Shown in pieces: positions 1-11,910 of a stretch of 20,475 nt of DNA. Source of the stretch: a virus; IMG/VR virus record IMGVR_UViG_3300030329_004528, positions 1-20,475 of that record; one strand, written 5' to 3'. The notes beneath the pieces are model-generated. The model saw only the letters and a list, made by a program, of their open reading frames with translations. It did not search any database and was not told the DNA's origin. The first letter of the stretch is position 1; each line of letters begins with the position of its first letter. Both the position numbers and the translations under genes were made by a program.

Positions 1-251
1 TCGTTGCCATCGGCCTGCGCTGTAATGTGCTCGGCCAGCAGCCCGGCCCAGTAGTTTTCGGCGGTCTGGAACATCTCGGGGTTGTACCATTTGCCTTCCG
101 TGTTCACGCCTTCCTTTCGATAGAGCGGCGGCATGGGCTTGGGGACATCCATGAATGTCGCGGCGATGTCTCTGTATTTCTCCAGCGCTTTTTCAAGGCA
201 CTCCAATTCGATTAGTCTGTATGTCATACCGTAAATGTCCTGTACTCTCAT
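1..251 (-). CDS. Hypothetical protein, 3' end outside window
   Basis: Leftward open frame that starts at an ATG at 251-249 and runs off the left edge, giving 83 visible codons. The start is supported by a 4-nt ATGA overlap with the stop of the gene upstream on the same strand (TGA at 250-248), typical of translationally coupled phage genes. The visible protein begins MRVQDIYGMTYRLIELE and has an amphipathic helical N-terminus (about residues 10-30) followed by a Pro-rich stretch and WY/YW aromatics. I do not recognise the family. It is the last visible member of the leftward operon of small genes. An in-frame Met at residue 9 is an alternative start. Confidence 0.7.
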   Translation of the reverse strand, partial: MRVQDIYGMTYRLIELECLEKALEKYRDIAATFMDVPKPMPPLYRKEGVNTEGKWYNPEMFQTAENYWAGLLAEHITAQADGN

Positions 252-439
252 ATTATGTTGTAGGGTTGAAAGGTCTTGCCCTTGCTTGGGTGCTTTTCGA
301 CATGGCGATCGACCATGTTTAGAAACTCCGCTTCTAGGCGGTTGAGGTAGGCGTCGCTGACGCGCGTCAGCCCCGCAACCTTGGCCCTCTTGGAGCCAAG
401 GATGCGGGTGCGTGTTAGTTTTCTGTTTATGTAACTCAT
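248..439 (-). CDS. Small basic hypothetical protein
   Basis: 63-aa protein beginning MSYINRKLTRTRILG. I chose ATG 439-437 because it overlaps the upstream gene's stop as TGATG, and the frame ends with ATGA coupling to the next gene. A longer reading of the same frame, up to about position 700, would lie antiparallel in codon phase to the well-formed gene 439-741 and has arginine-rich, shadow-like composition, so I reject it. The N-terminal half is rich in Lys and Arg (SKRAKVAGLTRV) and the C-terminal half is an acidic/basic helix (YLNRLEAEFLNMVDRHVEKH). This could be a small nucleic-acid-binding or regulatory protein, but no family is recognised. Confidence 0.65.
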   Translation of the reverse strand: MSYINRKLTRTRILGSKRAKVAGLTRVSDAYLNRLEAEFLNMVDRHVEKHPSKGKTFQPYNII

Positions 440-741
440 CAGTCGTCCTTGTTCATATCTGCGGCTTGCGTGACCCACTCCGGCAAGGGCGCTTTCAGCG
501 TAGATTTGTCCTGTATCGCGTACCAAGCCAGCGCCTCGTTGAGTAGATCCGCTGCCTTGGCCATCCGCTTCAGCTCGTCGTACAGGCTGTTGCGCGTGTC
601 GAGGCGCTCCAGCACTTCGTGGCCGACGGCTCCGTCTCCATCTCCTCCGACATAGGTCTGGCCGTAGGCGTGGAGAATCCCCGGCAGGATGCCCTCCCAA
701 GTGGGCGTTAGGTCGATCGTTTTATTGGTTTTTTCGCTCAT
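439..741 (-). CDS. Hypothetical phage protein
   Basis: 100-aa acidic protein starting MSEKTNKTIDLTPTWEGIL. The start is chosen because GAAAGGA lies at a good Shine-Dalgarno distance upstream on the minus strand. The 20 codons further upstream overlap the preceding gene and are therefore unlikely to be translated. It is predominantly helical (LERLDTRNSLYDELKRMAKA, then DLLNEALAWYAIQ), with a WV near the C-terminus. It lies 13 nt after the upstream gene's stop and overlaps the next gene as TGATG. The pattern of a central helical hairpin with an aromatic-rich end is common among small phage accessory proteins, but I cannot assign a function. Confidence 0.7.
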   Translation of the reverse strand: MSEKTNKTIDLTPTWEGILPGILHAYGQTYVGGDGDGAVGHEVLERLDTRNSLYDELKRMAKAADLLNEALAWYAIQDKSTLKAPLPEWVTQAADMNKDD

Positions 742-754
742 GTGTTCTGTCCTT

Positions 755-1045
755 TCAATAGTCGTTTTCGTGCCAAACTTCCCCCGCTGCTGCTGGATCA
801 AACCAGCTCGGCGGTGAGTCGGGGAGCGTTGGGGCTGTAAGCCGCCCTGCGTGGCCCTCTACGGGCAGGCTGGGGTGTTTTGCCTGCGCCTCCTCCATCG
901 TGTCGAAGAACTCGACAGGGATGTCCTGCTGCTGGCCTGCGAGCACGCTGCTCGACCCGTAGGTCTTCGTCGCGTACACGGCCCAGCCGTCGTGTTTGTC
1001 TTTGCGTATTGAGTGGGGTTTTGTTGTTTTATCTTCTCTGCTCAT
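755..1045 (-). CDS. Hypothetical phage protein with C-terminal PPSWFDP motif
   Basis: 96-aa protein. The C-terminus (PDSPPSWFDPAAAGEVWHEN followed by DY) is of a kind I associate with small conserved hypothetical proteins of phages, where a PPxWFDPxxxGExW-like tail recurs. That resemblance is from memory, not a search. The N-terminal half has a basic leader and a small alpha/beta segment (GWAVYATKTYGSSSVLAG) followed by a helix (TMEEAQAKHP). The start ATG at 1045 has no convincing Shine-Dalgarno, only an A-rich leader (CACCACAAAACA), and it follows a GC-rich hairpin at 1061-1087. Function unknown. Confidence 0.75.
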   Translation of the reverse strand: MSREDKTTKPHSIRKDKHDGWAVYATKTYGSSSVLAGQQQDIPVEFFDTMEEAQAKHPSLPVEGHAGRLTAPTLPDSPPSWFDPAAAGEVWHENDY

Positions 1046-1060
1046 TGTTTTGTGGTGTTA

Positions 1061-1091
1061 CGCCGGGCGGGAATTACCCCGCCCGGCTGGG
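1061..1091. repeat. GC-rich inverted repeat, copy 1 of an identical pair
   Basis: Arms GCCGGGCGGG (1062-1071) and CCCGCCCGGC (1078-1087) are perfect 10-bp complements around a 6-nt loop. The 31-bp unit 1061-1091 recurs identically at 1860-1890. It lies in the junction between two leftward genes, just upstream of the start codon at 1045. No T-tract follows on either strand, so it is not a classical intrinsic terminator. An mRNA-processing, stability or protein-binding element is possible. Confidence 0.8.
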
Positions 1092-1094
1092 GTT

Positions 1095-1298
1095 TCAGTT
1101 GGCCCATTGCCCGCCGCCTTCGCGCGGTTCATGGGTTGGCTCGCCGCTACAGCGCGGCCCGATTGCCTCCTCGATCATGTTGTCGATCCAGCGGCGGTTG
1201 CGCTTCAAGAAGTCGCGCATGGAGCCGCCTTCCCTCTGTCGCCAGCGGTACAGCCCCTCGTCGTTGTTGACCCATTGCTCGCGCTCGGTGTCGTTCAT
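1095..1298 (-). CDS. Small hypothetical phage protein (EQWVNNDEGLY type)
   Basis: 67-aa protein beginning MNDTEREQWVNNDEGLYRWW-like (actual residues LYRWRQREGG). The start at 1298 is supported by GGGAGG about 7 nt upstream and by an ATGA overlap with the preceding gene's TGA (1297-1295). The segment EQWVxNDEGLYxW followed by a helix (MRDFLKRNRRWIDNMIEEA) resembles short conserved phage proteins I have seen annotated as hypothetical. The C-terminus is Gly/Pro-rich and probably disordered. Charged and aromatic residues dominate. No enzymatic motif is visible. It is followed by the first GC-rich hairpin of the operon. Confidence 0.75.
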   Translation of the reverse strand: MNDTEREQWVNNDEGLYRWRQREGGSMRDFLKRNRRWIDNMIEEAIGPRCSGEPTHEPREGGGQWAN

Positions 1299-1540
1299 CG
1301 TGCGCCCTCCCATTTGCTTTGCATATCGAGCCAGCGCCGCACGCGCCCGACGGCGCGTGGCTGGCTGTAGTCTTGCGGGACACGGTTCCCGTCCTTGTCG
1401 CGTGCGTCGATCTCGTCATTGATCGCGGTGCGGATCATTGTGTCGTCTGCGTTGTTGGGTAGGTTGAGAGCAACCAGCGTGCAGATGTCCGTGATCGTCC
1501 AGCGGATCGGCGGGTCTTCCTTGTAGTTTTTCCAGCTCAT
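1295..1540 (-). CDS. Hypothetical protein
   Basis: 81-aa protein starting MSWKNYKEDPPIRWTITDI. The start at 1540 is preferred over an in-frame ATG seven codons upstream because the minus strand reads AGAAAGGAAAAAACCA immediately before it, giving a usable Shine-Dalgarno, whereas the upstream ATG lies within that same leader next to a hairpin. It contains a helical segment (ICTLVALNLPNNADD) and a charged middle (MIRTAINDEIDARDKDGN), ending in a Trp/Arg-rich stretch. It overlaps the next gene by 4 nt (ATGA). No family recognised. Confidence 0.7.
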   Translation of the reverse strand: MSWKNYKEDPPIRWTITDICTLVALNLPNNADDTMIRTAINDEIDARDKDGNRVPQDYSQPRAVGRVRRWLDMQSKWEGAR

Positions 1541-1557
1541 TGGTTTTTTCCTTTCTA

Positions 1558-1585
1558 CCAAGGCGGCGCTTTCGCGCCGCCCTGG
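1558..1585. repeat. GC-rich inverted repeat in operon junction
   Basis: GGCGGCGC (1562-1569) and GCGCCGCC (1574-1581) are perfect arms around TTTC, extended after one mismatch by CCA (1558-1560) and TGG (1583-1585). The hairpin sits between the stop at 1594 and the start at 1540 of leftward genes, directly upstream of the next gene's Shine-Dalgarno. No T-run follows on the minus strand. Confidence 0.7.
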
Positions 1586-1593
1586 TGGTGGTT

Positions 1594-1839
1594 TCAGACG
1601 ACGCCAGCGGCGCGTCCCATATCGTCCGCCACGCGCAGATCATGGTCGTCTGCGTGGCCCTCTGCGGGTTTCTCTGCGAGGTCTGCGAACAGCAGCAGCG
1701 CAGCGCGCGTGTTCTCCTGTTGCATCGCCTCAACGATGGCCTGCGCCTTGCGCTTGCCAAAGCCGATCACCTTGCTGCCGTCCTTGTGCAGCTCAATTAT
1801 CGGGTTGCCCTTATATGTGCTGTTTTTTGTCTCGATCAT
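1594..1839 (-). CDS. Hypothetical phage protein
   Basis: 81-aa protein starting MIETKNSTYKGNPIIELHKD. The start is supported by AGAAAGGA eight to nine nt upstream on the minus strand. The N-terminal half suggests a small beta-hairpin unit (TYKGNPIIELHKDGSKVIGFG), a pattern frequent in short phage proteins. A helix follows (KRKAQAIVEAMQQENTRAALLLFADLA), then an acidic tail. It is flanked on both sides by GC-rich hairpins (1558-1585 and 1860-1890). No catalytic motif. Function unknown. Confidence 0.75.
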   Translation of the reverse strand: MIETKNSTYKGNPIIELHKDGSKVIGFGKRKAQAIVEAMQQENTRAALLLFADLAEKPAEGHADDHDLRVADDMGRAAGVV

Positions 1840-1859
1840 GTTTAGTCCTTTCTGGGTTG

Positions 1860-1890
1860 CGCCGGGCGGGAATTACCCCGCCCGGCTGGG
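1860..1890. repeat. GC-rich inverted repeat, copy 2 of an identical pair
   Basis: Arms GCCGGGCGGG (1861-1870) and CCCGCCCGGC (1877-1886). The sequence from 1860 to 1890 is the same as 1061-1091. It lies between the stop at 1895 and the start at 1839 of leftward genes, with the downstream gene's Shine-Dalgarno between hairpin and ATG. No T-tract. Exact conservation, loop included, suggests recent duplication or selection for a specific binding site. Confidence 0.8.
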
Positions 1891-1894
1891 TTTG

Positions 1895-2317
1895 TTATGC
1901 TGGCAAGTGAATGGGCTTGCCGTCCCGATCCAACGCTCCTTGGCGCTTGTACTCTGCGAGGTCTGCCGCTGCCTCTGCGGCGTCGATGGCGGAGAAGCGG
2001 CGCTCCTCCTCGATCCGCTTCAGCTCCTTGAGTGCGGCGGCGTGCTGCGCCACGATAACGGGGCGCGTGCAGCGCTTTTGAACGCTTCCCAACTGGATCA
2101 CCTCGGAATCGAAATCCGACTCGATGCAGTAGCCCGTGACTTTGCCGTCGGCGTCGTGGGTGTATGTGATCCCGTTGTGGGCGCGCGCTGCGCTGTGGAT
2201 CGTGCCGCCCGGCATCCTGCGCGTGCCGATTGTCCAGCCGTCGGTGAGTGTCTCCATGCACCAACCGTGCGTGCGCTTTTCGATGATCGTGCGGGGTAGT
2301 TTTAAGCCTTCAGCCAT
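1895..2317 (-). CDS. Hypothetical protein with C-terminal coiled-coil-like helix
   Basis: 140-aa protein. GGAGGATT upstream of ATG 2317 is a strong Shine-Dalgarno that itself overlaps the end of the preceding gene (stop 2323-2321, 3 nt before the start). The N-terminal two-thirds looks like a beta-rich domain (TDGWTIGTRRMPGG, GITYTHDADGKVTGYCIESD). The C-terminal third is a charged helix (AAALKELKRIEEERRFSAI, then DAAEAAADLAEYKRQG) with coiled-coil character. It ends in DRDGKPIHLPA. No family recognised. The sequence is fluent and codon use matches its neighbours. Confidence 0.75.
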   Translation of the reverse strand: MAEGLKLPRTIIEKRTHGWCMETLTDGWTIGTRRMPGGTIHSAARAHNGITYTHDADGKVTGYCIESDFDSEVIQLGSVQKRCTRPVIVAQHAAALKELKRIEEERRFSAIDAAEAAADLAEYKRQGALDRDGKPIHLPA

Positions 2318-2320
2318 TGT

Positions 2321-2782
2321 TCAATCCTCCTCTGGCAGCCATAGCATCTCAACGACCCGCTGCCCGACCATTGTCCGGCCCAAAAGGAACTCCCAAGAGC
2401 CGATCGGGTGATCGCAAGTGTCGATTTCCCACGACCCCCAGCCCACCGGGCTGATCGCGTTCCGATCCATGACCTGAAGCACGGCGTCAGGCCCGTTAGG
2501 CGCTGGCCAGCGGTCAACCTCAAGGATCACCCTGAAGACATCCCCGCCGACGAATCCGGCGGAGCGCCTGCGGAGGTGCGGCACGACTTTTAAGGCGATG
2601 TCATCCAGCAGCCAATCGGCGCGCGCCATGTCCTTGGTCGTCTTGACGCCGAGCGTGTAGTTGAAGCACTTCACCAGCGGATGATGAAACACTTTTTCGC
2701 TCCCCCCTATGGCATACGCGCGCGCGTGAGCGAGCTGCGACGGCTCACAAGGGCCAGTCTGTTTTTGCGTTATTGTAGTCAT
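2321..2782 (-). CDS. Hypothetical protein, possible DUF6876-like
   Basis: 153-aa protein. The central segment with YTLGVKTTKDMARADWLLDD followed by IAL, then a hydrophobic strand, a CDHPIGSWEFLL segment and a final EMLWLPEED, recalls DUF6876-type proteins (YTxGVxxxxxxxxAYWLLDEI near the start, LPSE-like end). That assignment is from memory and tentative. The start ATG 2782 has an A-rich leader without a clear Shine-Dalgarno. It is the second gene of the leftward operon, separated from the first by a region of hairpins (2799-2847). Function unknown even if the family is right. Confidence 0.7.
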   Translation of the reverse strand: MTTITQKQTGPCEPSQLAHARAYAIGGSEKVFHHPLVKCFNYTLGVKTTKDMARADWLLDDIALKVVPHLRRRSAGFVGGDVFRVILEVDRWPAPNGPDAVLQVMDRNAISPVGWGSWEIDTCDHPIGSWEFLLGRTMVGQRVVEMLWLPEED

Positions 2783-2798
2783 ATTGCGTTTTGTTTGT

Positions 2799-2847
2799 GG
2801 AGCACTAGCGCTCCCCTATGCCCTCCCGGTGAGAGGGCAACGGGGAG
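2799..2847. repeat. Two overlapping hairpins in operon junction
   Basis: A short hairpin GGAGC (2799-2803) / GCTCC (2810-2814) overlaps a symmetrical two-tier hairpin. The latter has CTCCCC (2811-2816) pairing with GGGGAG (2842-2847) and, inside a 3x3 internal loop, GCCCTC (2820-2825) pairing with GAGGGC (2833-2838). The two structures share 2811-2814 and are therefore mutually exclusive, which is attenuator-like geometry. They lie between the stop at 2857 and the start at 2782 of leftward genes. Confidence 0.65.
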
Positions 2848-2856
2848 AGCTAACTT

Positions 2857-3159
2857 TTAATCGTTTTCCCATGCCTTGCGCGGCAGCTCGTAATCGTTTG
2901 CGCCCATCTTTTCACCGCAGGAGCAGCACTTGTAATCGTCGGGGAAATCCTCGTAGACCGCGCCGGGATAACATTCGATCCATTCGGAGGCTTTCAACTG
3001 TCCCTTGGCGCAGCACCACTCATCGTGCTCGCTCGACTTGTTACCGAACCAAACCTGATCGACGGCCATCTCCAGCCCGTTCATCGAGCACGCGCGGCAA
3101 ATGTCGTAGGTATTTCGATCGTCGTCATCGCGATCCATAACTGATTGGAATCTTGGCAT
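2857..3159 (-). CDS. Cysteine-rich hypothetical protein, putative zinc-binding
   Basis: 100-aa protein, first gene of the leftward operon. Cysteines cluster as CRAC (residues 21-24), CC (about 49-50), a single C in WIECYPG and CCSCGEKM near residues 78-85, a spacing consistent with one or two zinc-binding knuckles. It also has an acidic stretch (MDRDDDDRN) near the N-terminus. The start ATG 3159 lacks a Shine-Dalgarno and is preceded by an A-rich leader (AAACACAATAAA). It lies about 50 nt from the predicted start of the leftward transcript. As the promoter-proximal gene it is probably made early in infection. Function unknown. Confidence 0.75.
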   Translation of the reverse strand: MPRFQSVMDRDDDDRNTYDICRACSMNGLEMAVDQVWFGNKSSEHDEWCCAKGQLKASEWIECYPGAVYEDFPDDYKCCSCGEKMGANDYELPRKAWEND

Positions 3160-3214
3160 TTTATTGTGTTTTTTTGCGTTTTTTTAGTTATGGCAACCCC
3201 ATGTTGCCGCGCCC

Positions 3215-3242
3215 ATTCTATGTGAACTACATAGACTGTCAA
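3215..3242 (-). promoter_or_regulatory. Leftward promoter of the small-gene operon
   Basis: Read on the minus strand: TTGACA (3242-3237), 16-nt spacer, TAGAAT (3220-3215). The -35 is perfect for sigma-70-type consensus and the -10 is 5 of 6. It is correctly placed about 55 nt upstream of the first leftward gene in an AT-rich region. Confidence 0.7.
3217..3235. promoter_or_regulatory. Candidate operator palindrome
   Basis: TCTATGT-GAACT-ACATAGA: perfect 7-bp arms with a 5-nt centre, lying across the spacer and -10 of the leftward promoter. A lone half-site ACATAG occurs at 3262-3267, close to the rightward -35. A repressor bound here would block the leftward promoter. The adjacent ribbon-helix-helix gene (3314) is the natural candidate ligand, by inference. 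Confidence 0.55.
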
Positions 3243-3273
3243 TAGTTTTTTAATTCTTTTTACATAGTTTTTA

Positions 3274-3302
3274 TTGACACGCCTTTTTTGCGGGATTATC
3301 GC
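3274..3302 (+). promoter_or_regulatory. Possible rightward promoter
   Basis: TTGACA at 3274-3279 is a perfect -35. The only -10 at 17-nt spacing is TATCGC (3297-3302), which is weak. The 8-mer TATTGACA here is the inverted copy of TGTCAATA (3237-3244), so the two -35 regions are mirror-symmetric. A start near 3309 would make the first rightward gene (3314) nearly leaderless. Confidence 0.4.
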
Positions 3303-3313: not shown

Positions 3314-3469
3314 ATGGCAACCTCAGCAACGAGCCGCAAAGTGATGGTGAGCTTTTCCATCGAGCCGACGGAGCTTGAGAGGCTTCGGCGCGCCGCCAGA
3401 GAGGCAGACCGGAGCTTGAGCGCTTACATCAGGAGCCGCCTACGCCACAGGCGGCGCAGAACAGCATGA
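3314..3469 (+). CDS. Ribbon-helix-helix DNA-binding protein, putative repressor
   Basis: 51-aa protein, MATSATSRKVMVSFSIEPTE followed by LERLRRAAREADRSLSAYIRSRLRHRRRRTA. The strand KVMVSFSI, helix TELERLRRAAREAD and helix SLSAYIRSRLR reproduce the MetJ/Arc/CopG ribbon-helix-helix layout, in which the strand residues contact the DNA major groove as a dimer. The C-terminus is Arg-rich. There is no clear Shine-Dalgarno, and the start is close to the predicted transcription start. The stop overlaps the next ORF as ATGA. It is the first rightward gene and lies beside a palindrome within the divergent promoters, so an Arc/Mnt-like autoregulator or early repressor is the likely role (inference). Confidence 0.75.
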   Translation: MATSATSRKVMVSFSIEPTELERLRRAAREADRSLSAYIRSRLRHRRRRTA

Positions 3470-3648
3470 CAACACAACAACGACTCGCAGAGACGGAAGC
3501 AGCCCGGCGCCTTTTTTCGCGCCTAGGGTATGCGATGCAACCCGACGCCGACGGCGTGAAACACTTCGAGAAAATCAGAGATGGCAAGGCTGACCGAATA
3601 CATCCCCGCCGGACTTTACAGCGCCCGGCAGGCCGCAGAGCTGCTTAA
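3466..3648 (+). CDS. Doubtful small ORF overlapping regulator genes
   Basis: 60-aa frame coupled to the upstream gene by ATGA. Residues 1-38 look protein-like (MTTQQRLAETEAARRLFSRL, then GYAMQPDADGVKHFEKI). The last third overlaps the following HTH gene in another frame and is Arg/Pro-rich, shadow-like sequence. Either a short real gene with a long overlap, or a remnant once fused to the following HTH protein and now separated by a frameshift. No Shine-Dalgarno. No family recognised. Confidence 0.4.
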   Translation: MTTQQRLAETEAARRLFSRLGYAMQPDADGVKHFEKIRDGKADRIHPRRTLQRPAGRRAA

Positions 3649-3820
3649 TCTGTCGGTGCGGACAATCCGTGAGCGGCTGGCATCGGGAGAGCTTGAGCGC
3701 CTGCCACTAGGGCCGCGCCAGATCAGGATCAGCAGCAGAAGTCTCAACGCCATGATCGCACAGCGCCTCGCTGCAGATAGAGCACATAAAAGAAAAGAAC
3801 CGACGCCGGAATCGGTTTAG
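3581..3820 (+). CDS. MerR/excisionase-type helix-turn-helix protein
   Basis: 79-aa protein. Residues 13-55 (YSARQAAELLNLSVRTIRER, then LASGELERLPLG and RQIRISSRSLNAMI) fit the HTH_17/excisionase pattern: a helix-turn-helix with S-A-R-Q-A-A-E-L and a wing ending in the R-I-S-S/L motif. Such small proteins act as transcription regulators or as directionality factors. No integrase is visible here, so a regulatory role is more likely. The C-terminus is basic (AADRAHKRKEPTPESV). The Shine-Dalgarno is weak. It is the second of three consecutive DNA-binding genes. Confidence 0.75.
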   Translation: MARLTEYIPAGLYSARQAAELLNLSVRTIRERLASGELERLPLGPRQIRISSRSLNAMIAQRLAADRAHKRKEPTPESV

Positions 3821-4106
3821 GGCGCAAATAATTCCAACAAAAGGGAAGCAGAGCCAGAACACGCCTAGAGCTAGATCATACGATAAACAATCGAGATGCA
3901 GAGAGCCAAAATGCTAACAAATAAGCCTATTCTACTCAATTTGTGTCAATTCCGTGCCAAATATCGCGACAAACAGTTTGACGCACGCGAACCGCGCACG
4001 CGAACGCGCCCGCGAACGCGCGAGGCGGGGGGGGGGTCATCGCGAAGCGGCCCCGGCCCTATCGCGACATGGATTACTACTCACGGAAAATCTAGTAAAT
4101 GGGCCT
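3821..4106. other. Intergenic region with GC-rich direct repeats and a G10 tract
   Basis: No convincing gene. The left half (3821-3960) is A-rich. The right half holds three direct repeats beginning CGCGAAC at 3986, 3999 and 4011 (13, 12 and 12 nt), then a run of ten G at 4027-4036. Two frames stay open through it (from ATG 3896 and GTG 3954), but their products are Arg/Thr/Pro repeats dictated by the GC repeats, so I treat them as non-coding. The region could hold a promoter or protein-binding sites for the downstream HTH gene. Confidence 0.5.
3986..4022. repeat. Three tandem GC-rich repeats (CGCGAAC units)
   Basis: CGCGAACCGCGCA (3986-3998), CGCGAACGCGCC (3999-4010) and CGCGAACGCGCG (4011-4022). 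Near-tandem, 12-13-bp period, CpG-rich. They lie about 90 nt upstream of the HTH gene at 4107. Confidence 0.7.
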
Positions 4107-4562
4107 ATGACAGATGAAATGATTTCAGAGAAGGAGCTGGCTCATCGATTAGGAGTCACCCGTAATGTCCTGCGATCTCATCGTGAGACCGATTTGGTAA
4201 AAAACGCCGATTGGAAAAAAAACGGGCGTGTCATTGAGTACACCAGCGCTGGCGTAGAGAGCCTGATGAAACTCTTGGGGGTAGAGGGGGCCAAAAACGA
4301 AAAAAACGGCGTCAGCGAGCGTTCTAGGCCCAAAGAAATGCTGGTGCTGGTTGCGGAGGGATTTCATCCCAGAAGATTCGCCAATTCAAAAATGCTTCCG
4401 ACGGTCACAAAGAGTGGCGAGGCCGTTTGGGTCAGGGTGAAGGACAACAAGAATTTCAGAGCTATCGACTATCGCAGGGAGCGCATGGAGCTGCCGGTGG
4501 TGTGGGACGGCAGGGTTTGGGTGCTTAACCGGCCCTGCCCTCGATGGCTCGGCAAATGGTGA
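4107..4562 (+). CDS. HTH-containing hypothetical protein, putative regulator
   Basis: 151-aa protein starting MTDEMISEKELAHRLGVTRN. Residues 6-30 (ISEKELAHRLGVTRNVLRSH) resemble a helix-turn-helix, and the following segment with DWKKNGRVIEYTSAGVESLM resembles the wing and dimer helix of MerR-like phage regulators. The C-terminal half (MLVLVAEGFHPRRFANSKM, then GEAVWVRVKDNKNF) looks like a small beta domain. I chose ATG 4107. An in-frame GTG at 3954 would add 51 codons encoded by GC repeats and the G10 tract. The Shine-Dalgarno is weak. It sits directly before the replication genes and may control them or assist initiation. Confidence 0.65.
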   Translation: MTDEMISEKELAHRLGVTRNVLRSHRETDLVKNADWKKNGRVIEYTSAGVESLMKLLGVEGAKNEKNGVSERSRPKEMLVLVAEGFHPRRFANSKMLPTVTKSGEAVWVRVKDNKNFRAIDYRRERMELPVVWDGRVWVLNRPCPRWLGKW

Positions 4563-4837
4563 GCGCTGAATGGCGAAAAATAGAGTTTCAGAAAATTGTG
4601 GAACGAGTCAACCACAAGCGGAGGAGGCTTCGCTGGTCTTGGGTCAAGATCGAGCGAGCTGGTCAACCCTCCAAGGTGGCGCTGGTCGATCCACAGGGCC
4701 AGTTGTGGCTCCTGAAGATGAACAAGGGCGCTTGGATTAAACCGTATGGGGAAACCTCTGACATGGCTGGCAATCAACGAGGAGATAGACAACCCAAGAA
4801 CAAAGCTGTTGCTGGTAGCAATGGCAGCGCTGGCTAA
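4544..4837 (+). CDS. Small basic hypothetical protein upstream of initiator
   Basis: 97 aa from ATG 4544, overlapping the previous stop by 19 nt. In-frame alternatives are ATG 4556 and GTG 4559, the latter giving a GTGA overlap with the preceding TGA (4560-4562). The central part (KRRRLRWSWVKIERAGQPSK, then VALVDPQGQLWLL) looks like a small basic beta-sheet unit. The last 30 residues overlap the initiator gene in another frame and look like by-product sequence (AGNQRGDRQPKNKAVAGSNG). No family recognised. Its position in the replication module suggests an accessory role. Confidence 0.5.
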   Translation: MARQMVSAEWRKIEFQKIVERVNHKRRRLRWSWVKIERAGQPSKVALVDPQGQLWLLKMNKGAWIKPYGETSDMAGNQRGDRQPKNKAVAGSNGSAG

Positions 4838-5519
4838 AGAGGAGAAAGGCAAACCTAACATGGTCTATGCAAAAAGAGAAACCTTGATGAAGTTCGCCAG
4901 CTTGACCCGAACCGGCTACTACGAATCAATAATAACGCTGAAAAGCAAAGGGTTAATATCCCCCGTTATCAGCGATTATGGCCAAACTTCCTTTATCGTT
5001 AATCTTGAGTCCGAAATACGGACAGAGTCCGAAATACGGACGGATGAGTCCGAAATACGGACGGATGAGTCCGAAATACGGACTCCCCTTACTAGTAATC
5101 CTAATACTAATCCTAATACTCTTATCATAGAGAAATCGGTATTCCTTGAAAGGGTGAAGATGGGAGCAGCGATCCCTCCTGACTTTGCCGATGAGTGGTA
5201 TGAGGATTGTATCCGTAAAGGCTACTTCCTCCAGCCCAACGGTAAGATCAGGCCGTTCGGGACTCAACTCCACCACATGGTGAGTGAATGTCAGTCTTGG
5301 TTTAATAAAAGGCGAAAAACTGCGCCGGATTCAACAAGGCCGGAATCCACCTATGAACGAAGGCAGCGCCTCGACGCCTTGGAGATTCTGATTAGGGAAC
5401 ACAACGGAAATCCCGATTCCAAGGAGCGTCAACGCGCCACACAGGAGGAAATTGCCGATTTCAAGGCACTCAAGAAGGATCGAAACCAAATACTAAACGA
5501 AATAGGACGAAGAAAATGA
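4746..5519 (+). CDS. Phage replication initiator, lambda O-like (winged-helix N-terminus)
   Basis: 257-aa protein. Residues 18-85 (helix TKLLLVAMAALAKEE, recognition part RETLMKFASLTRTGYYESII, then LKSKGLISPV) match the HTH_36/replication-protein winged helix that binds origin iterons. Residues 88-113 are encoded by four repeats and read as four ESEIRT units. A linker of SNPNTNPNT follows, then a C-terminal domain (133-190, with ADEWYEDCIRKGYF and GTQLHHMVSECQSWFNKRRK) like the end of many phage replisome organisers, and a charged tail. The gene overlaps the helicase gene by ATGA. By analogy with lambda O, it would bind the repeats in its own gene and recruit the helicase. The start at 4746 lacks a strong Shine-Dalgarno. 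Confidence 0.75.
   Translation: MGKPLTWLAINEEIDNPRTKLLLVAMAALAKEEKGKPNMVYAKRETLMKFASLTRTGYYESIITLKSKGLISPVISDYGQTSFIVNLESEIRTESEIRTDESEIRTDESEIRTPLTSNPNTNPNTLIIEKSVFLERVKMGAAIPPDFADEWYEDCIRKGYFLQPNGKIRPFGTQLHHMVSECQSWFNKRRKTAPDSTRPESTYERRQRLDALEILIREHNGNPDSKERQRATQEEIADFKALKKDRNQILNEIGRRK
5007..5083. repeat. Four iteron-like palindromic repeats, candidate origin
   Basis: GAGTCCGAAATACGGAC occurs four times without mismatch: 5007-5023, 5025-5041, 5046-5062 and 5067-5083. Start-to-start spacing is 18, 21 and 21 bp, close to two helical turns. Each copy contains GTCCG / CGGAC arms around AAATA, and the fourth extends to 7-bp arms (GAGTCCG / CGGACTC). All spacings are multiples of three and keep the initiator frame. 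The layout matches lambda ori, whose four O-binding iterons lie inside gene O. Confidence 0.8.
5096..5119. repeat. Two tandem AT-rich 12-mers, candidate unwinding element
   Basis: TAATCCTAATAC is repeated back to back at 5096-5107 and 5108-5119, within an AT-rich stretch (about 5090-5150) immediately downstream of the four iterons. Iterons followed by AT-rich direct repeats is the standard arrangement of a DNA unwinding element at iteron-based origins. The reading frame codes SNPNTNPNT here. Confidence 0.65.
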
Positions 5520-6955
5520 CGGAATCAGAGACTTTACACTCAATCGACGCGGAAAAAGGGCTGCTGGGCTGCTGCATAGCCGATCCGGCCACCAGTTTAA
5601 GTCTGATTATTGATCGGCTAGGCACAATCACGCCTGAAAAATCGTTCTACGCTGTCCGGCACAAGCTCATTTTCAAGACCATGTGCAAGATGTTCTCCAA
5701 TGGCGACGCCATCAGTCTGGCTTCGCTCAATGTGGAGCTAAAAAAAGCGGAGCCGGATCAGGATTTCATCCAGTATCTTTGTGAGCTTGAAGATTTGGCG
5801 GTAACGCCCGGCTTGGCAGAATATTTCCTTCGCGAAGTGTGGGAACAGATGCTGCGGAGGCAGACGATCCGAGTCTGCAATACCATCGTCACCGAGCTGA
5901 AGAAGCCGGAGGATCATGGGGGCATCCCGGCAGTCGTGGATCGGGCCGAGGTGGCCCTGCTGGATGCCAACTCGAAAAACAAGGGCGGCGACAGTCAATC
6001 TCTGGATCAACTGCTCAACGATTTCGCCGTTGAGATGGACAATTACAAGTACGGTGAGGGCCGAATTACCGGCATCTCCACCGGGTACGAATACTTGGAC
6101 AAAATGACCGGCGGATTGCACCCGTCTGAAATGGTCGTTTTGGCTGGCCGCCCCGGTTCTGGGAAAACCTCGATCGGGATGAACATCGTGGAAAACATGG
6201 TCATGGCTGGCAAATCGGTGGGGGTGTTCTCACTTGAAATGAGCGCCCTAGAGCTGGTCAAGCGCCTGATCTTCTCCCGTTGTCGTGGGGATTATCAAAA
6301 GTACCGCACCGGCTTCATGGATAAAAAGAAGGATTTGCCTCCCGTCAGCCATGCTGTCGCGGAATTTTCGGGCAAAGGGATTCACATCGACGACGGTAAC
6401 GGAACCATCACCGACATCCGTGCCAAGGCACGCCGGATGAAGCAGATGCACGGCATCGACTTGGTTGTCATCGACTATGTCCAACTGGTCGCCGGGGATT
6501 CCAATTACCAATCCAGAGAGAACGAGGTCGCCAAGGTTTCGATGGGGATCAAGCAACTGGCCAAGGAGCTGAATGTGCCGGTGCTCGCTCTGGCGCAAAT
6601 GAACCGGGAATCCGAAAGGGATTCTGGAAACCGCGCCCCCCGCATGACGGATTTACGCGAAACGGGTCAACTGGAGCAGGATGCAGACTGCATTATGATG
6701 CTGCACGAAGTCCGGCCCAAGGACGAGAAGGAGGAGGAGGATTGGAAGAAGGCCGGGATCGGTGAGAACGCCAAGACCGGCTGGGACTGCGCGGTGCTGG
6801 CCAGAAACCTCTACATCACCAAGCAGCGCAACGGCCCGGTGGGCGATTGCCATTTCATGTTCCACAAATCCTCCATGACTTTTGAGGAAAGAACCCCATC
6901 CAAGGTGGAGGAGATGATAATGCACAATGGGAAATTAAAGGATTTGGCAACATGA
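5516..6955 (+). CDS. dnaB: Replicative DNA helicase, DnaB family
   Basis: 479-aa protein, near full length for DnaB. The N-terminal domain (about 5-110, with DAEKGLLGCCI and the YxxxHxxIF-like YAVRHKLIFKTM) is followed by a linker helix and a RecA-type ATPase. The ATPase shows Walker A GRPGSGKT at 211-218, catalytic Glu in SLEM (241), Walker B LVVIDY at 316-321, the LAQMNR motif near 359-364, and DLRETGQLEQDAD (379-391) with the conserved arginine. It unwinds DNA 5' to 3' as a hexameric ring at the fork. It overlaps the initiator gene by ATGA, so the two are probably made together. Having its own helicase suggests it needs the host loader or relies on the initiator for loading. Confidence 0.95.
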   Translation: MTESETLHSIDAEKGLLGCCIADPATSLSLIIDRLGTITPEKSFYAVRHKLIFKTMCKMFSNGDAISLASLNVELKKAEPDQDFIQYLCELEDLAVTPGLAEYFLREVWEQMLRRQTIRVCNTIVTELKKPEDHGGIPAVVDRAEVALLDANSKNKGGDSQSLDQLLNDFAVEMDNYKYGEGRITGISTGYEYLDKMTGGLHPSEMVVLAGRPGSGKTSIGMNIVENMVMAGKSVGVFSLEMSALELVKRLIFSRCRGDYQKYRTGFMDKKKDLPPVSHAVAEFSGKGIHIDDGNGTITDIRAKARRMKQMHGIDLVVIDYVQLVAGDSNYQSRENEVAKVSMGIKQLAKELNVPVLALAQMNRESERDSGNRAPRMTDLRETGQLEQDADCIMMLHEVRPKDEKEEEDWKKAGIGENAKTGWDCAVLARNLYITKQRNGPVGDCHFMFHKSSMTFEERTPSKVEEMIMHNGKLKDLAT

Positions 6956-7161
6956 AGACGAAATACGGTTGGAGTGCTGTCCGCCACAGGCATTTTATGC
7001 AGCGGTCTTTGAGTGAGAGGGAGAGGTTGGAACGGGCGCATCCAACCCCTTGTCCTTGGAAGTATAAGCGTGAACATAAAGTTTATCCGAAGCCGGTTCA
7101 CGCAAACTGTTGCAGTCAATGGGAGAGGAAGTGGAACGGCTATTGGTGGGAGGAGGCGTGA
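6952..7161 (+). CDS. Small basic, Trp-rich hypothetical protein
   Basis: 69-aa protein coupled to the helicase gene by ATGA. It is rich in Arg, Lys, His and Trp (WKYKREHKVYPKPVH, ERKWNGYWWEEA) with two adjacent cysteines (ANCCSQW), so a small nucleic-acid-associated or metal-binding protein is possible, though no motif is diagnostic. The ATG is preceded by TTTGGCAAC rather than a good Shine-Dalgarno, so expression probably depends on coupling. No family recognised. Confidence 0.55.
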   Translation: MKTKYGWSAVRHRHFMQRSLSERERLERAHPTPCPWKYKREHKVYPKPVHANCCSQWERKWNGYWWEEA

Positions 7162-7172
7162 ATTTAGGCAAC

Positions 7173-7304
7173 ATGAAAAAACCTTGCCGCATAAAGGCGA
7201 GGATGCTTGGCAACACCGTAGCTTCATGTTCCCCGCCGAGTGGTGGGGGTGGCCGCAGCTCCGGCTGGTTTTATTGGTTTTTCCTGCCGGGGCTGGAACT
7301 TTGA
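7173..7304 (+). CDS. Very small doubtful ORF
   Basis: 43-aa frame starting MKKPCRIKARMLGNTVASCS, with a Gly/Ser linker and a hydrophobic aromatic end (GWFYWFFLPGLEL). The upstream sequence TTTAGGCAACATGAA resembles that before the gene at 6952 (TTTGGCAACATGAA). Its stop lies 1 nt before the next start (7306). It could be a tiny membrane-associated peptide, or simply a gap between genes. Confidence 0.25.
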   Translation: MKKPCRIKARMLGNTVASCSPPSGGGGRSSGWFYWFFLPGLEL

Positions 7305-7305
7305 G

Positions 7306-7509
7306 ATGTGGAAAAAAATGAAAGATCAGGAGCCGGAAAGCGGCGCGGAGGTGCTGGTGAAGGAGGCAGGCGGTCTGCCTCCCTCCCTGCGCTGGCTCGC
7401 GGAATACGACTCTGGAAAAGGCGGGTTCCACATCGTCAACGGAGGTTTTTTGGAGACCGGGGATGTTTCTCATTGGATGGAAATCCCCCCGGTTCCAGAG
7501 GAGAAATAA
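7306..7509 (+). CDS. DUF551-like hypothetical protein
   Basis: 67-aa protein starting MWKKMKDQEPESGAEVLVKE. It follows the DUF551 layout as I remember it: an N-terminal W-x-x-M/I region with EPESGAEVLV (LPExGxxVLV-like), a central strand with W (LRWLAEYD), and the characteristic end VSHWMEIPPVPEE (consensus near VTHWMPLPEPP). The family is widespread in phages and has no established function. ATG 7318 (second Met) is an alternative start. It is followed after 2 nt by the next gene. Confidence 0.7.
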   Translation: MWKKMKDQEPESGAEVLVKEAGGLPPSLRWLAEYDSGKGGFHIVNGGFLETGDVSHWMEIPPVPEEK

Positions 7510-7511
7510 CA

Positions 7512-7733
7512 ATGGCAAAAGTAAAAAACGGACGACTGTTCAAGGTCGAAAACAAGGGCCGAAAATTCGGCGCAAATGAGTTCTATGCCTTCACCTATCT
7601 GGAGGACAGCGACGGCGACAACGAGACTCCCTATTTGTTCACGCCAAGCCAGTTGGAGGTGGCCAAGATTCGGGCGGAAAAGAACCCAGAGGACTTGCTC
7701 AAGAAAGACAGACTCACCGATTGGTTTGATTGA
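7512..7733 (+). CDS. Hypothetical phage protein
   Basis: 73-aa protein starting MAKVKNGRLFKVENKGRKFG. AGAGGAGAAATAACA before ATG 7512 is a strong Shine-Dalgarno. It appears to be a compact beta domain (GRLFKVENKGRKFGANEFYA then FTYLEDSDGDNETPYLFT) followed by a helix (PSQLEVAKIRAEKNPEDLL). Small proteins of this type, ending in a helix of xxQLEVAxxRAxKNPEDxx, recur in phages and are usually unassigned. The stop overlaps the next ATG as TGATG. Longer reading of this frame upstream overlaps the DUF551-like gene and is rejected. Confidence 0.75.
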   Translation: MAKVKNGRLFKVENKGRKFGANEFYAFTYLEDSDGDNETPYLFTPSQLEVAKIRAEKNPEDLLKKDRLTDWFD

Positions 7734-8113
7734 TGACAGCTTACTTTCCTTGTGAATATTGTGATTTGAAACAGTTAATGGACGATGATCCTTATTTGTT
7801 TCATGGGCTTACCAAAGAAAGAGAGATAAAGTTCAAGGAATGGTTGCCTAATAATATGCACATCTATGACGCCTTCTTTCGGTACGCTACTGAATTAAGG
7901 TGTCACGGACACAGAGAGTATTATTCCGCCCGTGCCATTTGGGAACGGTTGCGATGGGACACTTTGCTGCAAGATTCTGGTGGCCCTCCCCCCAAAATTT
8001 CTGATCTGAATATGCCTTTTGTTTCGTGGCTGGCTATGTATGCGGAGCCACACTTGAGTGGGATGTTCAGGAAACGCAGAAAACGGGAAGAAGGAGGTTC
8101 TCTTAATGAATAA
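7733..8113 (+). CDS. Hypothetical phage protein
   Basis: 126-aa protein. Starting at ATG 7733 (TGATG overlap) is preferred over TTG 7730. It begins with a CEYC pair. The middle (NNMHIYDAFFRYATELRCHG then YSARAIWERLRWDTLL) and the end (MPFVSWLAMYAEPHLSGMFR then KRRKREEG) resemble a small phage family of unknown function with an SARxIxExxRW core and a final F-x-x-R/K motif. The gene is visibly more AT-rich than its neighbours, which may indicate a separate origin. No catalytic motif identified. Confidence 0.7.
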   Translation: MTAYFPCEYCDLKQLMDDDPYLFHGLTKEREIKFKEWLPNNMHIYDAFFRYATELRCHGHREYYSARAIWERLRWDTLLQDSGGPPPKISDLNMPFVSWLAMYAEPHLSGMFRKRRKREEGGSLNE

Positions 8114-8273
8114 AGAAATAAAGGCCATTTTGGAGGAGCCGGAAACTGAAGACCGGCGTGAACTGGAGCGGAAGGTTTCACATATAAGAGTCATCGATCT
8201 GGTGGTCTCTTTCATTTCCATTCTGTTCAAAATCGTCTGTCTGAAAGTCAGGAACTTCATCAAGAAGCTATGA
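8106..8273 (+). CDS. Small protein with C-terminal membrane segment
   Basis: 55-aa protein, MNKEIKAILEEPETEDRREL then a hydrophobic stretch VIDLVVSFISILFKIVCLKV (about residues 27-46) and a basic end RNFIKKL. GGAGG about 10 nt upstream supports ATG 8106. It overlaps the previous stop by 8 nt and the next start by ATGA. The layout (charged cytoplasmic N-terminus, single membrane helix, basic tail) suggests a small inner-membrane protein of unknown role. AT-rich like the preceding gene. Confidence 0.6.
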   Translation: MNKEIKAILEEPETEDRRELERKVSHIRVIDLVVSFISILFKIVCLKVRNFIKKL

Positions 8274-8638
8274 AACAAAAAAACAAACTATACCATTACA
8301 ATGCCGAAATCACCCGCGTCGTGGATGGCGACACGGTCGATGCCTTCATCGATCTGGGGTTCGATATGCACTCAAAGCAGCGCGTCAGGCTCTTTGGCAT
8401 CAATACGCCGGAGTGTCGAACGCGGGATAAGGAGGAAAAGAAGAAGGGTCTTGCGGCCAAGGCGTTCGTTTGTGAGTCGCTCAAGCAGAACAAGAACAAA
8501 TGCGTCATCAAGACCCGTCTGGACAAGAAGGGGAAATTCGGGCGCGTGTTGGGGGTTGTGTATGTGGCCGACTACAACTTGAACTCTCTGCTCGTCGAGA
8601 AGGGCCATGCCGTCAGGTATTACGGGGGGAAACGGTAG
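8270..8638 (+). CDS. Thermonuclease-family nuclease (SNase homologue)
   Basis: 122-aa protein of the staphylococcal nuclease family. It shows the VVDGDT motif (17-22), RLFGINTPE (40-48) and KFGRVLG (89-95). R40, E48 and R92 correspond to the catalytic Arg35, Glu43 and Arg87 of the archetype, and D21 to a calcium ligand. Asn45 replaces the usual Asp40, a change seen in some phage-type homologues. The end LNSLLVEKGHAVRY is also typical. No signal peptide is visible, so it should act inside the cell as a Ca-dependent nuclease on host DNA or RNA. It is coupled by ATGA to the upstream gene and lies 1 nt before the next. Confidence 0.9.
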   Translation: MKQKNKLYHYNAEITRVVDGDTVDAFIDLGFDMHSKQRVRLFGINTPECRTRDKEEKKKGLAAKAFVCESLKQNKNKCVIKTRLDKKGKFGRVLGVVYVADYNLNSLLVEKGHAVRYYGGKR

Positions 8639-8639
8639 C

Positions 8640-8858
8640 ATGATGTCTGACGAGGAGATCAGGGACGACGCGCTGGTGGCCTTTTCGCTCCGTGCGACCG
8701 CGAAATTCAACAGCGGCATCAGGGAGCATAACCCGAACGGAGACCGGGGCATGATGAAGATGACTCAACTTCAGCGGATCAAGGCGGCTCAAGAGGAGTG
8801 CATGGACACTTGGTTTTACCTTTATTCGATGGAAATCGCAGAACTGGAAAAACGCTAA
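8640..8858 (+). CDS. Hypothetical phage protein, possibly MazG-like helical
   Basis: 72-aa protein starting MMSDEEIRDDALVAFSLRAT. GGGGGGAAACGGTAG upstream gives a usable Shine-Dalgarno. The central FNSGIREHNPNGDRGMMKM and the end RIKAAQEECMDTWFYLYSME resemble short phage proteins in which an E-E-x-x-D helix (EECMD) recalls all-alpha NTP pyrophosphatases of the MazG type. The other helix expected to complete that site is not obvious, so function remains tentative. The stop overlaps the next ATG as TAATG. Confidence 0.65.
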   Translation: MMSDEEIRDDALVAFSLRATAKFNSGIREHNPNGDRGMMKMTQLQRIKAAQEECMDTWFYLYSMEIAELEKR

Positions 8859-9079
8859 TGAGAAAATCAAAAGGAATGACCGGCGGCTCAATCAAGCAGC
8901 CGGATGTGCTGGAGGACGGCAGCGACATTGATCCGAGCCAGATCGTTGGCCTTAAAAAACTGATAAACGACGGCAGCAACCGCTTTTGGGCGAAGCGCGG
9001 CATGGTCGATCCCTCGACCGAGCGGGGGTATCACTATGGACAAAAATCAAAATCTAAAGGAACAGAAAACCCCGGCTAA
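8858..9079 (+). CDS. Small basic hypothetical protein
   Basis: 73-aa protein starting MRKSKGMTGGSIKQPDVLED, with a Lys/Gly-rich end (GYHYGQKSKSKGTENPG) that overlaps the next gene by 44 nt. It contains a short helix (PSQIVGLKKLINDGSNRFW) and AKRGMVDPSTERG. No family recognised. Start supported by TAATG coupling to the preceding gene. Confidence 0.6.
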   Translation: MRKSKGMTGGSIKQPDVLEDGSDIDPSQIVGLKKLINDGSNRFWAKRGMVDPSTERGYHYGQKSKSKGTENPG

Positions 9080-9677
9080 ATCCCCTCTCCTGCCTGCTGC
9101 TGTTCAGAATGAACTGTTTTCGGACGAGGAGTTTGCCTCTGGCCGGGAGCTGGTGGAAGCCTACGAGGCCAAGCCGGGGAAGTTCAGCGGAAAGATTCTG
9201 GAGCGCCGCAAGGAGCTGGTGGACACGATCCTGATGCACATTGTCGATGGCTGGTCGGCCCTTGCGATTTCAAAGGTTTACCGCATCAGTAGAAACTCCA
9301 TCCAAGCTCTGATTCAGCGCGCCGAGGACGATGGCCGGATCGCCGCCTTTGAGAATCGCTTGGCGGGGGCTTTGAAGTACAATGTCATGCTTTCAACCGA
9401 GGTGGTTCAAGAGCATTTGGAGTCTGGGAATGCCACCATGAAGGATGCCTACATGAACATGGGCATTAGTGCGGATAAGCTCTTTGTTCTCTTGGGTAAG
9501 GCCACCAGCCGGGTGGAGCACAGTTACAAGGACAATAGCAAGGAGTACGAGGCGGATGTGAAGGCGCTGATCGAGGAGGGGAAGAAACTTTTAGAGGAGA
9601 AAAAAGTGGCAATCGATGTCGAATCAAGAACAGAAATTCAAGGGGTTCAAGCAGACCCCGTTCGCGGCGATACCTGA
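9036..9677 (+). CDS. Putative terminase small subunit
   Basis: 213-aa protein starting MDKNQNLKEQKTPAKSPLLP. The identification rests on position immediately before the large terminase, plus a DNA-binding-like centre: ILMHIVDGWSALAISKVYRI followed by SRNSIQALIQRAEDDGR resembles a helix-turn-helix of the small-terminase/homeodomain kind, then helices (NVMLSTEVVQEHLESG, ADKLFVLLGKAT) that could form the oligomerisation region. The acidic C-terminal helix (ALIEEGKKLLEEKKVA) could contact the large subunit. GGGGGT upstream serves as Shine-Dalgarno. It overlaps the previous gene by 44 nt and the large subunit by 62 nt. A generic HTH regulator is the alternative. Confidence 0.65.
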   Translation: MDKNQNLKEQKTPAKSPLLPAAVQNELFSDEEFASGRELVEAYEAKPGKFSGKILERRKELVDTILMHIVDGWSALAISKVYRISRNSIQALIQRAEDDGRIAAFENRLAGALKYNVMLSTEVVQEHLESGNATMKDAYMNMGISADKLFVLLGKATSRVEHSYKDNSKEYEADVKALIEEGKKLLEEKKVAIDVESRTEIQGVQADPVRGDT

Positions 9678-11325
9678 AATCACGCCGGAGGAACTGGCCA
9701 TTATCGGCCAATCCAAGGGGTTGAGGAAGGTGATGGATGTCCTTGAGCGCCGTGAGAAGATCATTCATGCCGCCAAGGTAGATCCGCTGCGTTCGGGCAT
9801 CGTGCTCGATCCTTGGAAGGATGCCTACCGGCTGCTGGAGGAATGCGATGAAATTTTGATTCTGGGAGGCAATCGCGCCTCCAAGACGGATTTTGCGGCG
9901 CGGGTAGCCGTGGAAACTATGGTCGAGGAAGACCGCCGTAATGTGTGGTGTCTGCACTCTACTCTGCCGAGTTCGATCGAGATGCAGCAGCCTGTTATCC
10001 GCCGCTATCTCCCCACGGAGTGGCGTGACATCGGGAAGCAGGGTCAAACCACCAATGTTCGCTGGACAGACAAGGGCGGTTTTGCCGATCAGGTTTTTAT
10101 TCTCCCCAACGGCTCCCGTTGCCGCTTCTTAAATTACTCCATGCAGGAGAGCGTGTTTGAGGGCGGCGAACTTGACCTGATCTGGGCCGACGAGCTGATC
10201 GGGTACGAACTGGTCAAGACGCTCCGTTTCCGTATCGCCACCCGTTCCGGCAAGCTCATCATCTCGTTCACGCCGGTCAAGGGCTACAGCATGGTGGTCA
10301 AGGAGTTCATTGCAGGGGCAAGGGTTCTGGAGTCCCGCCCTGCCCCTCTGCTTGAGCAGGATCGGGTTCATGTGCCAGGTTGTCCGCCGGGCGAGATGCC
10401 CTACATCCTCCAGCCCATGCGCGGCAACGCGCGCGTGATCTGTTTTCACTCCATCTGGAACCCGTTCGGCGGGTACGGCAACATCGTCAAGATGCTGGAG
10501 GGCAAGACCTCGGAGGAAATCAAGATTCGGGCCTACGGCTGGGCCGAGCGTCTGGAGGGCAAGGCGTTCCCCAAGTTCAACGAGAAGGTTCATGTCGTCG
10601 ATCCCAAGGACATCCCAACCAAGGGAACCCGTTACTGCTCCTGCGATCCCGGCGGAACCAAAAACTGGTTTCTCAAGTGGTATCTTGTGGATGATCTGGA
10701 TCGGGTCTGGCTGTACCGGGAGTGGCCGGATCGCAAGCAGTACGGCGAATGGGCGCTGCCGGGCGACAAGCCGGACGGCAAGCCGGGGCCAGCCCAGACC
10801 CCGTTGGGAATGTCGATCCTCTCCTACAAGCGCCTGCTGGCCGAGCTGGAGGGTTCCGAGGAAATCTTTGAGCGCGTGATCGATCCGCGCGGCGGAGGGG
10901 CGGAGGTTCCCAACATCAAGCAGGGTCAGAGCATCATCAGCATGATGGAGGAGGAACAGACCTCTATGGACGGCGAGGTGGTGGGGCCAGCTTATATCTG
11001 GTACGCCGGGCCGGGCGGCGACATCGAGGACGGGATCACGGTCATCAACGATATGTTTGATTTCGACGACACCCAGCCGGTCAACGCCATGAACAGCCCC
11101 CGCTTCTTCATCTCCAGCGCCTGCGAACAGAGCATCTATGCCTACTCGGAATACACCGGTCTGGACGGATTGAGGGGCGCGCTCAAGGATGTGGTTGATC
11201 CTGATCGCTACCTGTTCAAGCGCGGCGTCTTCTATGTGGACGATCATGTGATGCAGGCCACGGGCGGCGCGCAGCCGCTCGGCGCGTTTGGGCGCTCGGC
11301 GCGGTATTCGGACTTTGACTTATGA
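9616..11325 (+). CDS. terL: Terminase large subunit (packaging ATPase/nuclease)
   Basis: 569-aa protein that drives DNA into the prohead and cuts concatemers. The ATPase domain has Walker A GGNRASKT (84-91), a variant with Ser where Gly usually precedes Lys, Walker B LDLIWADE (186-193) with catalytic Glu193, and coupling motif SFTP (217-220). The nuclease domain starts near YCSCDPGGTKN (340-350), with Asp344 as first metal ligand, Asp423 in ERVIDPRGGG, and a C-terminal acidic cluster (527-543) as likely further ligands. The start is chosen at ATG 9616 within the upstream gene. It ends ATGA-coupled to an HTH gene. Subtype (cos or headful) cannot be decided from sequence alone. Confidence 0.93.
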   Translation: MSNQEQKFKGFKQTPFAAIPEITPEELAIIGQSKGLRKVMDVLERREKIIHAAKVDPLRSGIVLDPWKDAYRLLEECDEILILGGNRASKTDFAARVAVETMVEEDRRNVWCLHSTLPSSIEMQQPVIRRYLPTEWRDIGKQGQTTNVRWTDKGGFADQVFILPNGSRCRFLNYSMQESVFEGGELDLIWADELIGYELVKTLRFRIATRSGKLIISFTPVKGYSMVVKEFIAGARVLESRPAPLLEQDRVHVPGCPPGEMPYILQPMRGNARVICFHSIWNPFGGYGNIVKMLEGKTSEEIKIRAYGWAERLEGKAFPKFNEKVHVVDPKDIPTKGTRYCSCDPGGTKNWFLKWYLVDDLDRVWLYREWPDRKQYGEWALPGDKPDGKPGPAQTPLGMSILSYKRLLAELEGSEEIFERVIDPRGGGAEVPNIKQGQSIISMMEEEQTSMDGEVVGPAYIWYAGPGGDIEDGITVINDMFDFDDTQPVNAMNSPRFFISSACEQSIYAYSEYTGLDGLRGALKDVVDPDRYLFKRGVFYVDDHVMQATGGAQPLGAFGRSARYSDFDL

Positions 11326-11525
11326 AATTCAACGATCTGCCACTTCTGCTCAAGCCGTATCGAGTCTCGGAGATCACCGGGATGACGAAGCGGCGGCTCC
11401 GTGATCTGGTCAGTAATGGCGAGCTGGAGGTGATCTACACGAAAGGACGGCGTCAACCTCTCTACAAGCGGGAGAGCGTCAGGGTGTTTTTAAAGCTGGA
11501 AGGAAATGAAGAACTACGAAGATAA
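11322..11525 (+). CDS. Small HTH protein after terminase
   Basis: 67-aa protein, ATGA-coupled to the large terminase. LKPYRVSEITGMTKRRLRDL (9-28) followed by VSNGELEVIYTKGRRQPLYK is a helix-turn-helix with a wing of the MerR/excisionase type, and RESVRVFLK a final helix. Small HTH genes are unusual between packaging and capsid genes. It may regulate the adjacent intergenic repeats (11752-11789) or act with the terminase, both inferred. Overlaps the next ORF by 20 nt. Confidence 0.7.
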   Translation: MKFNDLPLLLKPYRVSEITGMTKRRLRDLVSNGELEVIYTKGRRQPLYKRESVRVFLKLEGNEELRR

Positions 11526-11745: not shown

Positions 11746-11751
11746 TTTCGC

Positions 11752-11789
11752 ACCGTTTAATACCGTTTAATACCGTTTAAACCCGTTTA
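11752..11789 (+). repeat. Four CCGTTTA repeats at 10-bp spacing
   Basis: CCGTTTA begins at 11753, 11763, 11773 and 11783, exactly 10 bp apart, in units ACCGTTTAAT, ACCGTTTAAT, ACCGTTTAAA and CCCGTTTAGA. Helical phasing puts all copies on one face of the DNA, as expected for cooperative binding sites or a bend. The TTTAAT parts resemble a -10 box, but no matching -35 is visible. Confidence 0.7.
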
Positions 11790-11795
11790 GACATA

Positions 11796-11810: not shown

Positions 11811-11818
11811 AGGAACTG

Positions 11819-11853: not shown

Positions 11854-11910
11854 CTGTTGGTTGACCCGTTAAAAAATCAACCGCTGTTAACCGTCTTGCA
11901 GGTAAAAGCA

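Follow-up and report, generated by a model that had tools for sequence, protein, structure and literature searches.

A probable lambda-type replication origin inside the initiator gene of an uncultured tailed phage

Features of the locus

The window analyzed here, the whole stretch of DNA under study, comprises 20,475 bases of the 22.7-kb viral record IMGVR_UViG_3300030329_004528 (IMG/VR), from an uncultured phage. It encodes a terminase (9616-11325) and an SU10-type major capsid protein (12985-13980; Pfam SU10_MCP, E = 6e-51), and the phage is therefore a tailed one. A gene for a winged-helix initiator is followed directly by the gene for a 479-aa DnaB-type helicase. Features are listed by window coordinates and strand, with the basis of each assignment in brackets.

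4746-5519, plus strand: initiator gene, 257 aa (ORF, AlphaFold2 secondary structure and pLDDT, HTH_36 match in the relative L002, weak PHROG replication-initiation matches)
4896-4961, plus strand: codons 51-72, including the predicted recognition helix, residues 55-67 (41% aa identity to the relative L001, vs. 92% for codons 1-50)
5007-5023, plus strand: iteron 1, GAGTCCGAAATACGGAC (repeat search)
5025-5041, plus strand: iteron 2 (repeat search)
5046-5062, plus strand: iteron 3 (repeat search)
5067-5085, plus strand: iteron 4, extending to a perfect 19-bp dyad, GAGTCCGAAATACGGACTC (repeat search)
5087-5137, no strand assigned: least stable 50-bp segment of the gene (nearest-neighbor profile)
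5096-5119, plus strand: two perfect tandem 12-mers, TAATCCTAATAC, an AT-rich candidate unwinding element (DNA identical in L001 and L002)
5516-6955, plus strand: replicative helicase of the DnaB type, presumably the client of the initiator (DnaB_C, E = 4e-78; DnaB N-terminal, E = 6.7e-12; PHROG 19, E = 2.6e-93)

A MerR/excisionase-like gene lies just 5' of the initiator gene. A 97-aa ORF (4544-4837) runs into the initiator gene in a different frame and shares 92 bases with its start; L001 retains most of this reading (4775-5092), which suggests that the overlapping gene is real. An SSB gene (Pfam SSB) separates helicase and terminase in L001 (9130-9483) and L002 (3136-3471); at this position the window has an SNase-type nuclease gene (8270-8638), and no SSB-like ORF was noticed there. 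The AT skew changes sign near 3.2-3.4 kb (window 1-3300 vs. 3400-20475), where gene direction appears to switch, in a divergent early region with small uncharacterized minus-strand genes.

Iterons and AT-rich 12-mers

Repeat searches confirmed the arrangement described in an earlier note on this DNA. Four identical 17-bp copies with palindromic arms lie at 5007-5023, 5025-5041, 5046-5062, and 5067-5083 (start spacing 18/21/21 bp), and the two AT-rich 12-mers that follow them form, in correct register, a perfect tandem pair (5096-5107 and 5108-5119). Each iteron is an inverted repeat, GTCCG-AAATA-CGGAC, and the symmetry of iteron 4 is wider than that of the others (GAGTCCG-AAATA-CGGACTC). Among the 12-mers of the 20,475 bases, only those of the iterons recur at least three times, and no site within 3 mismatches of the 15-bp iteron core was found elsewhere in the 22.7-kb record. 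The 50-bp segment from 5087 falls in the lowest 0.03% of the window for stability. The DnaA-box pattern gave a single match in the window, at 7307, which equals chance expectation. The earlier note had also proposed a GC-skew switch at the origin as a check; cumulative GC skew, computed for the window and the L001 and L002 contigs, gave no origin signal and was uninformative, because it tracks gene orientation.

The initiator protein

An AlphaFold2 model was built on a three-sequence alignment (mean pLDDT 67) and predicted an N-terminal winged helix (about residues 5-85; elements H17-29, E39-41, H44-51, H55-67, E71-75, and E81-85), a disordered linker (90-126), and a helical C-terminal domain (130-255). 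The predicted disorder spans most of the iteron and 12-mer codons. The repeats thus lie, as the earlier note had it, inside a winged-helix replication gene that precedes a DnaB helicase (from 5516).

Structural neighbors of residues 2-90 were winged helices generally, including the plasmid RepA structures 4pql, 4pt7, and 5kbj, all tied; for 4pql, Z was 9.1 with an rmsd of 3.9 over 91 residues, a tie with unrelated winged helices. BFVD matches were mostly phage helix-turn-helix proteins, one of them a replication protein O. The HTH_36 profile was matched by L002 (27.9 bits, cutoff 25), and the window (12.7) and L001 (13.5) scored below the cutoff in the same region. L002 also weakly matched PHROG replication-initiation families, two of which are named O-like. 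The Pfam profile PF04492 (Phage_rep_O) was matched by the lambda, phi80, and P22 initiators and by none of the window, L001, and L002 proteins. No RepA_N match was found for the initiator in Pfam at E up to 10, and hhalign comparisons with lambda O and phi80 gp15 were not significant, although the recognition-helix regions were aligned. For the C-terminal domain, BFVD yielded no significant match, no PDB chain reached a Z of 8, and no helicase-loading fold was recognizable. By these profiles, the initiator appears to be a diverged HTH_36-like winged-helix protein, and it falls outside the lambda O sequence family.

Relatives keep the palindromes and change the peptide

Viral and genome contigs were searched with initiator, C-terminal, helicase, and terminase queries, and with iteron and 12-mer DNA patterns. 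Besides the window, the candidate origin segment was found in these contigs only in two full relatives, the IMG/VR contigs L001 (initiator 70% identical over the aligned protein) and L002 (53%). L003 and L040 start beyond the origin segment, L039 is without the initiator gene, and no phage record was matched when the initiators of the window and L002 served as tblastn queries. An exact 17-mer match in L004, the sole such match elsewhere, was dismissed (unrelated gene, opposite strand). Matches to TAATCCTAATACTAATCC other than those in L001 and L002 look like unrelated genes, and the likeness to Stenotrophomonas phage TPWB-10 is confined to a stretch of repetitive, AT-rich DNA.

The earlier note had allowed for a repeat number that varies between relatives; instead, L001 and L002 each have four repeats, in the same codons and at the same 18/21/21 spacing as the window, copy 2 of L002 being degenerate. 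Their cores are TTCTC-AAATA-GAGAA and GTCTC-AAATA-GAGAC, against GTCCG-AAATA-CGGAC in the window. When the 8 distinct repeat sequences are taken together, 90% of their arm positions pair (62.5% at most if the partner is shifted along), and three of the five arm pairs have changed on both sides; as the four copies evolve in concert, the number of independent paired substitutions is only two or three. The arm changes are largely nonsynonymous (GAA to CAA, E to Q; CGG to GAG, R to E), and the linker peptide ESEIRT of the window is replaced by DSQIEK/ESQIET in the relatives. Because the changes alter amino acids, the palindrome was kept at the expense of the peptide. The earlier note had counted relatives that keep the peptide without the DNA repeats as evidence against its reading; the reverse was seen, with DNA symmetry and spacing kept and the peptide changed.

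The AT-rich segment is conserved as DNA. In codons 114-131, 14 of 15 comparable degenerate codons were identical in the three phages, vs. 29 of 65 elsewhere (Fisher p = 0.0005). The latter background was taken from degenerate codons outside the iterons in the aligned part of the gene; the gene start, which overlaps the upstream ORF in another frame, if anything lifts it. The lowest-stability 50 bp of the gene lies at offset 342-344 in all three phages.

Selection on DNA within the coding region

As a control, 20,000 random synonymous versions of each peptide were generated with the codon usage of the window. For the window, none of the 20,000 equaled the real sequence in arm complementarity (20/20), in copy identity (102/102), or in the AT content of the segment that follows, and for L001 at most one reached the observed values. 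L002 gave a less clear result for the arms (44/20,000) and for copy identity (375/20,000), whereas its AT content stood out just as strongly. The repeated peptide therefore fails to explain the DNA of the window and L001. With symmetry and melting sequence kept and the peptide changed, selection is shown to act on DNA inside the coding region. The suggestion of the earlier note that ESEIRT exists because the DNA must keep the iterons is supported, as the relatives change the peptide and keep the palindrome, and the recoding controls agree.

What the DNA is kept for could be read in several ways, and the alternatives to an origin are less likely. The repeats could act as RNA, forming successive hairpins in the initiator mRNA and so regulating how the replication genes are translated or transcribed. 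The same symmetry yields hairpins (folding z-scores -3.8, -2.7, and -3.6 in the three phages), and the paired arm changes also fit RNA stems. However, L001 and L002 do not fold into four separate hairpins at minimum free energy, the loop sequence AAATA hardly varies, the 18/21/21 spacing is fixed, low-stability DNA is fixed beside the repeats, and the established phi80, P22, and lambda origins share this anatomy, which together make this role very unlikely. Equally improbable is that the repeats serve not as an origin but as an operator of the replication operon, to which the initiator or some other regulator of the phage binds. Dyad repeats are typical of operators, the MerR/excisionase-like gene is close by, and such a function could coexist with that of an origin; yet the site lies mid-gene and is followed by a DNA-conserved AT-rich segment at the stability minimum of the gene, for which an operator gives no reason. 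That ESEIRT is a functional linker repeat, with the DNA repeats a by-product of tandem duplication, would suit the in-frame position of every copy and the identity of the window copies, as after recent duplication, but is extremely unlikely given the altered peptide and retained palindrome of the relatives, the recoding controls, the predicted disorder of the linker, and a four-copy spacing common to three diverged phages.

Co-divergence of the predicted recognition helix and the iterons

Between the window and L001, amino acid identity was 92% over codons 1-50, 41% over codons 51-72, and 67% over codons 73-87, and further 3' it was 38% in the iteron codons, 92% in the 12-mers, and 81% over codons 132-188. 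Codons 51-72 form the second half of the helix-turn-helix, with the predicted recognition helix. Nucleotide identity dropped and recovered at the same borders. On this alignment, the predicted DNA-reading part and its putative target sites diverge as one block. A more tentative reading, somewhat less likely than not, is that codons about 51-113 are a compact module for origin specificity, in which some 190 bp hold the recognition helix, the wing, and the four target sites. This module would change as a unit, by cassette recombination or rapid coevolution, its half-site type having switched between CTC/GAG and CCG/CGG; three sequences were available for this comparison. If true, such initiators would form a natural series from which the recognition code of HTH_36-type initiators could be read.

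Origin assignment and proposed mechanism

Theta replication of the phage very probably starts in this segment, which shares its build with the origins of lambda, phi80, and P22. Several dyad-symmetric iterons lie in the initiator's own gene just past the predicted DNA-binding domain, AT-rich and easily melted DNA lies directly past the iterons, and the helicase gene is directly 3' (5516), as in P22. The layout kept in the relatives, taken with the phi80 and P22 anatomy, argues that the segment would work like a lambda-type origin, and the proposal of the earlier note, a lambda-style origin inside the initiator gene, is supported by this match.

In the mechanism proposed, the initiator would bind every dyad-symmetric iteron through its winged helix, probably in dimeric form, so that each GTCCG half-site is read by one recognition helix. 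Four such dimers, spaced about two helical turns apart, would bend or wrap the DNA in a complex resembling the O-some. The TAATCCTAATAC repeats next to it would then melt, and the C-terminal domain might help load the single strand with the DnaB-type helicase that the phage itself encodes in the following gene. Because the repeats fall in codons of a linker predicted to be disordered, the DNA can dictate the peptide, and ESEIRT would result.

Sequence alone thereby assigns a candidate origin to an uncultured lineage of phages, within a gene missed by the lambda O profile. The three relatives make a small natural experiment in which DNA symmetry and the melting sequence are constant and the peptide is altered, and the co-divergence of helix and sites gives concrete predictions on binding specificity and on plasmid-like incompatibility of related phages.

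Comparison with known origins

In phi80 gene 15, four annotated gp15 sites of the TTCCCGAAAACGGGAA type lie inside the initiator gene at 20/21/21 spacing. They are palindromes of the TTCCCG-AAAA-CGGGAA type, with the inner half-site CCG/CGG as in the window, and the linker peptide is also repeated (FPKTGKSFPKSGITFPKT). The phi80 initiator differs in being a Phage_rep_O protein, and the next gene is lambda-P-like, not a helicase. In P22 (genes 18 and 12), four repeats within the gene for an O-like initiator are followed by AT-rich DNA and then by a DnaB-like helicase gene; the iterons are of the ACC/GGT type at 20/24/23 spacing, and the initiator matches Phage_rep_O.

In lambda, four inverted-repeat iterons come straight after the DNA-binding domain of O and are followed by AT-rich DNA. 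These iterons are of the ATCCCTCAAAACGAGGGA type, with the half-site CTC/GAG as in L001 and L002, whereas their spacing is 20/24/23 and a separate loader, P, serves the host helicase. The lambda repeats lie in different frames, so no repeated peptide is found there. O proteins of the lambda type form dimers, and the smallest site for lambda O is an imperfect inverted repeat of 19 bp (PMC7466680).

Inverted arms around an A-rich center are common to lambda, phi80, P22, and the window. The half-site likeness of the window to phi80, and of its relatives to lambda, may reflect chance, convergence, or a shared recognition mode; the same two types, CTC/GAG and CCG/CGG, separate lambda from phi80. 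Origin specificity reportedly differs between lambdoid phages (Grosschedl and Hobom, 1970s). A lambda hybrid with P22 replication escapes inhibition aimed at lambda-type replication (PMC3349717), which fits type-specific origins.

The RepA_N plasmid initiators (pSK41, pTZ2162) are also winged-helix proteins, and 4pql, 4pt7, and 5kbj were among the structural matches, but the phage initiator is without a RepA_N profile match and this structural match ties with many other winged helices. Most characterized iterons of RepA_N plasmids are direct repeats with inverted arms round an A tract (PMC7145576), and the pSK41 origin, which has iterons, is cited as situated within the rep coding sequence (PMC3155836). 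The lambda-type origin design is known; new is this phage example, with an initiator that is not of the Phage_rep_O family.
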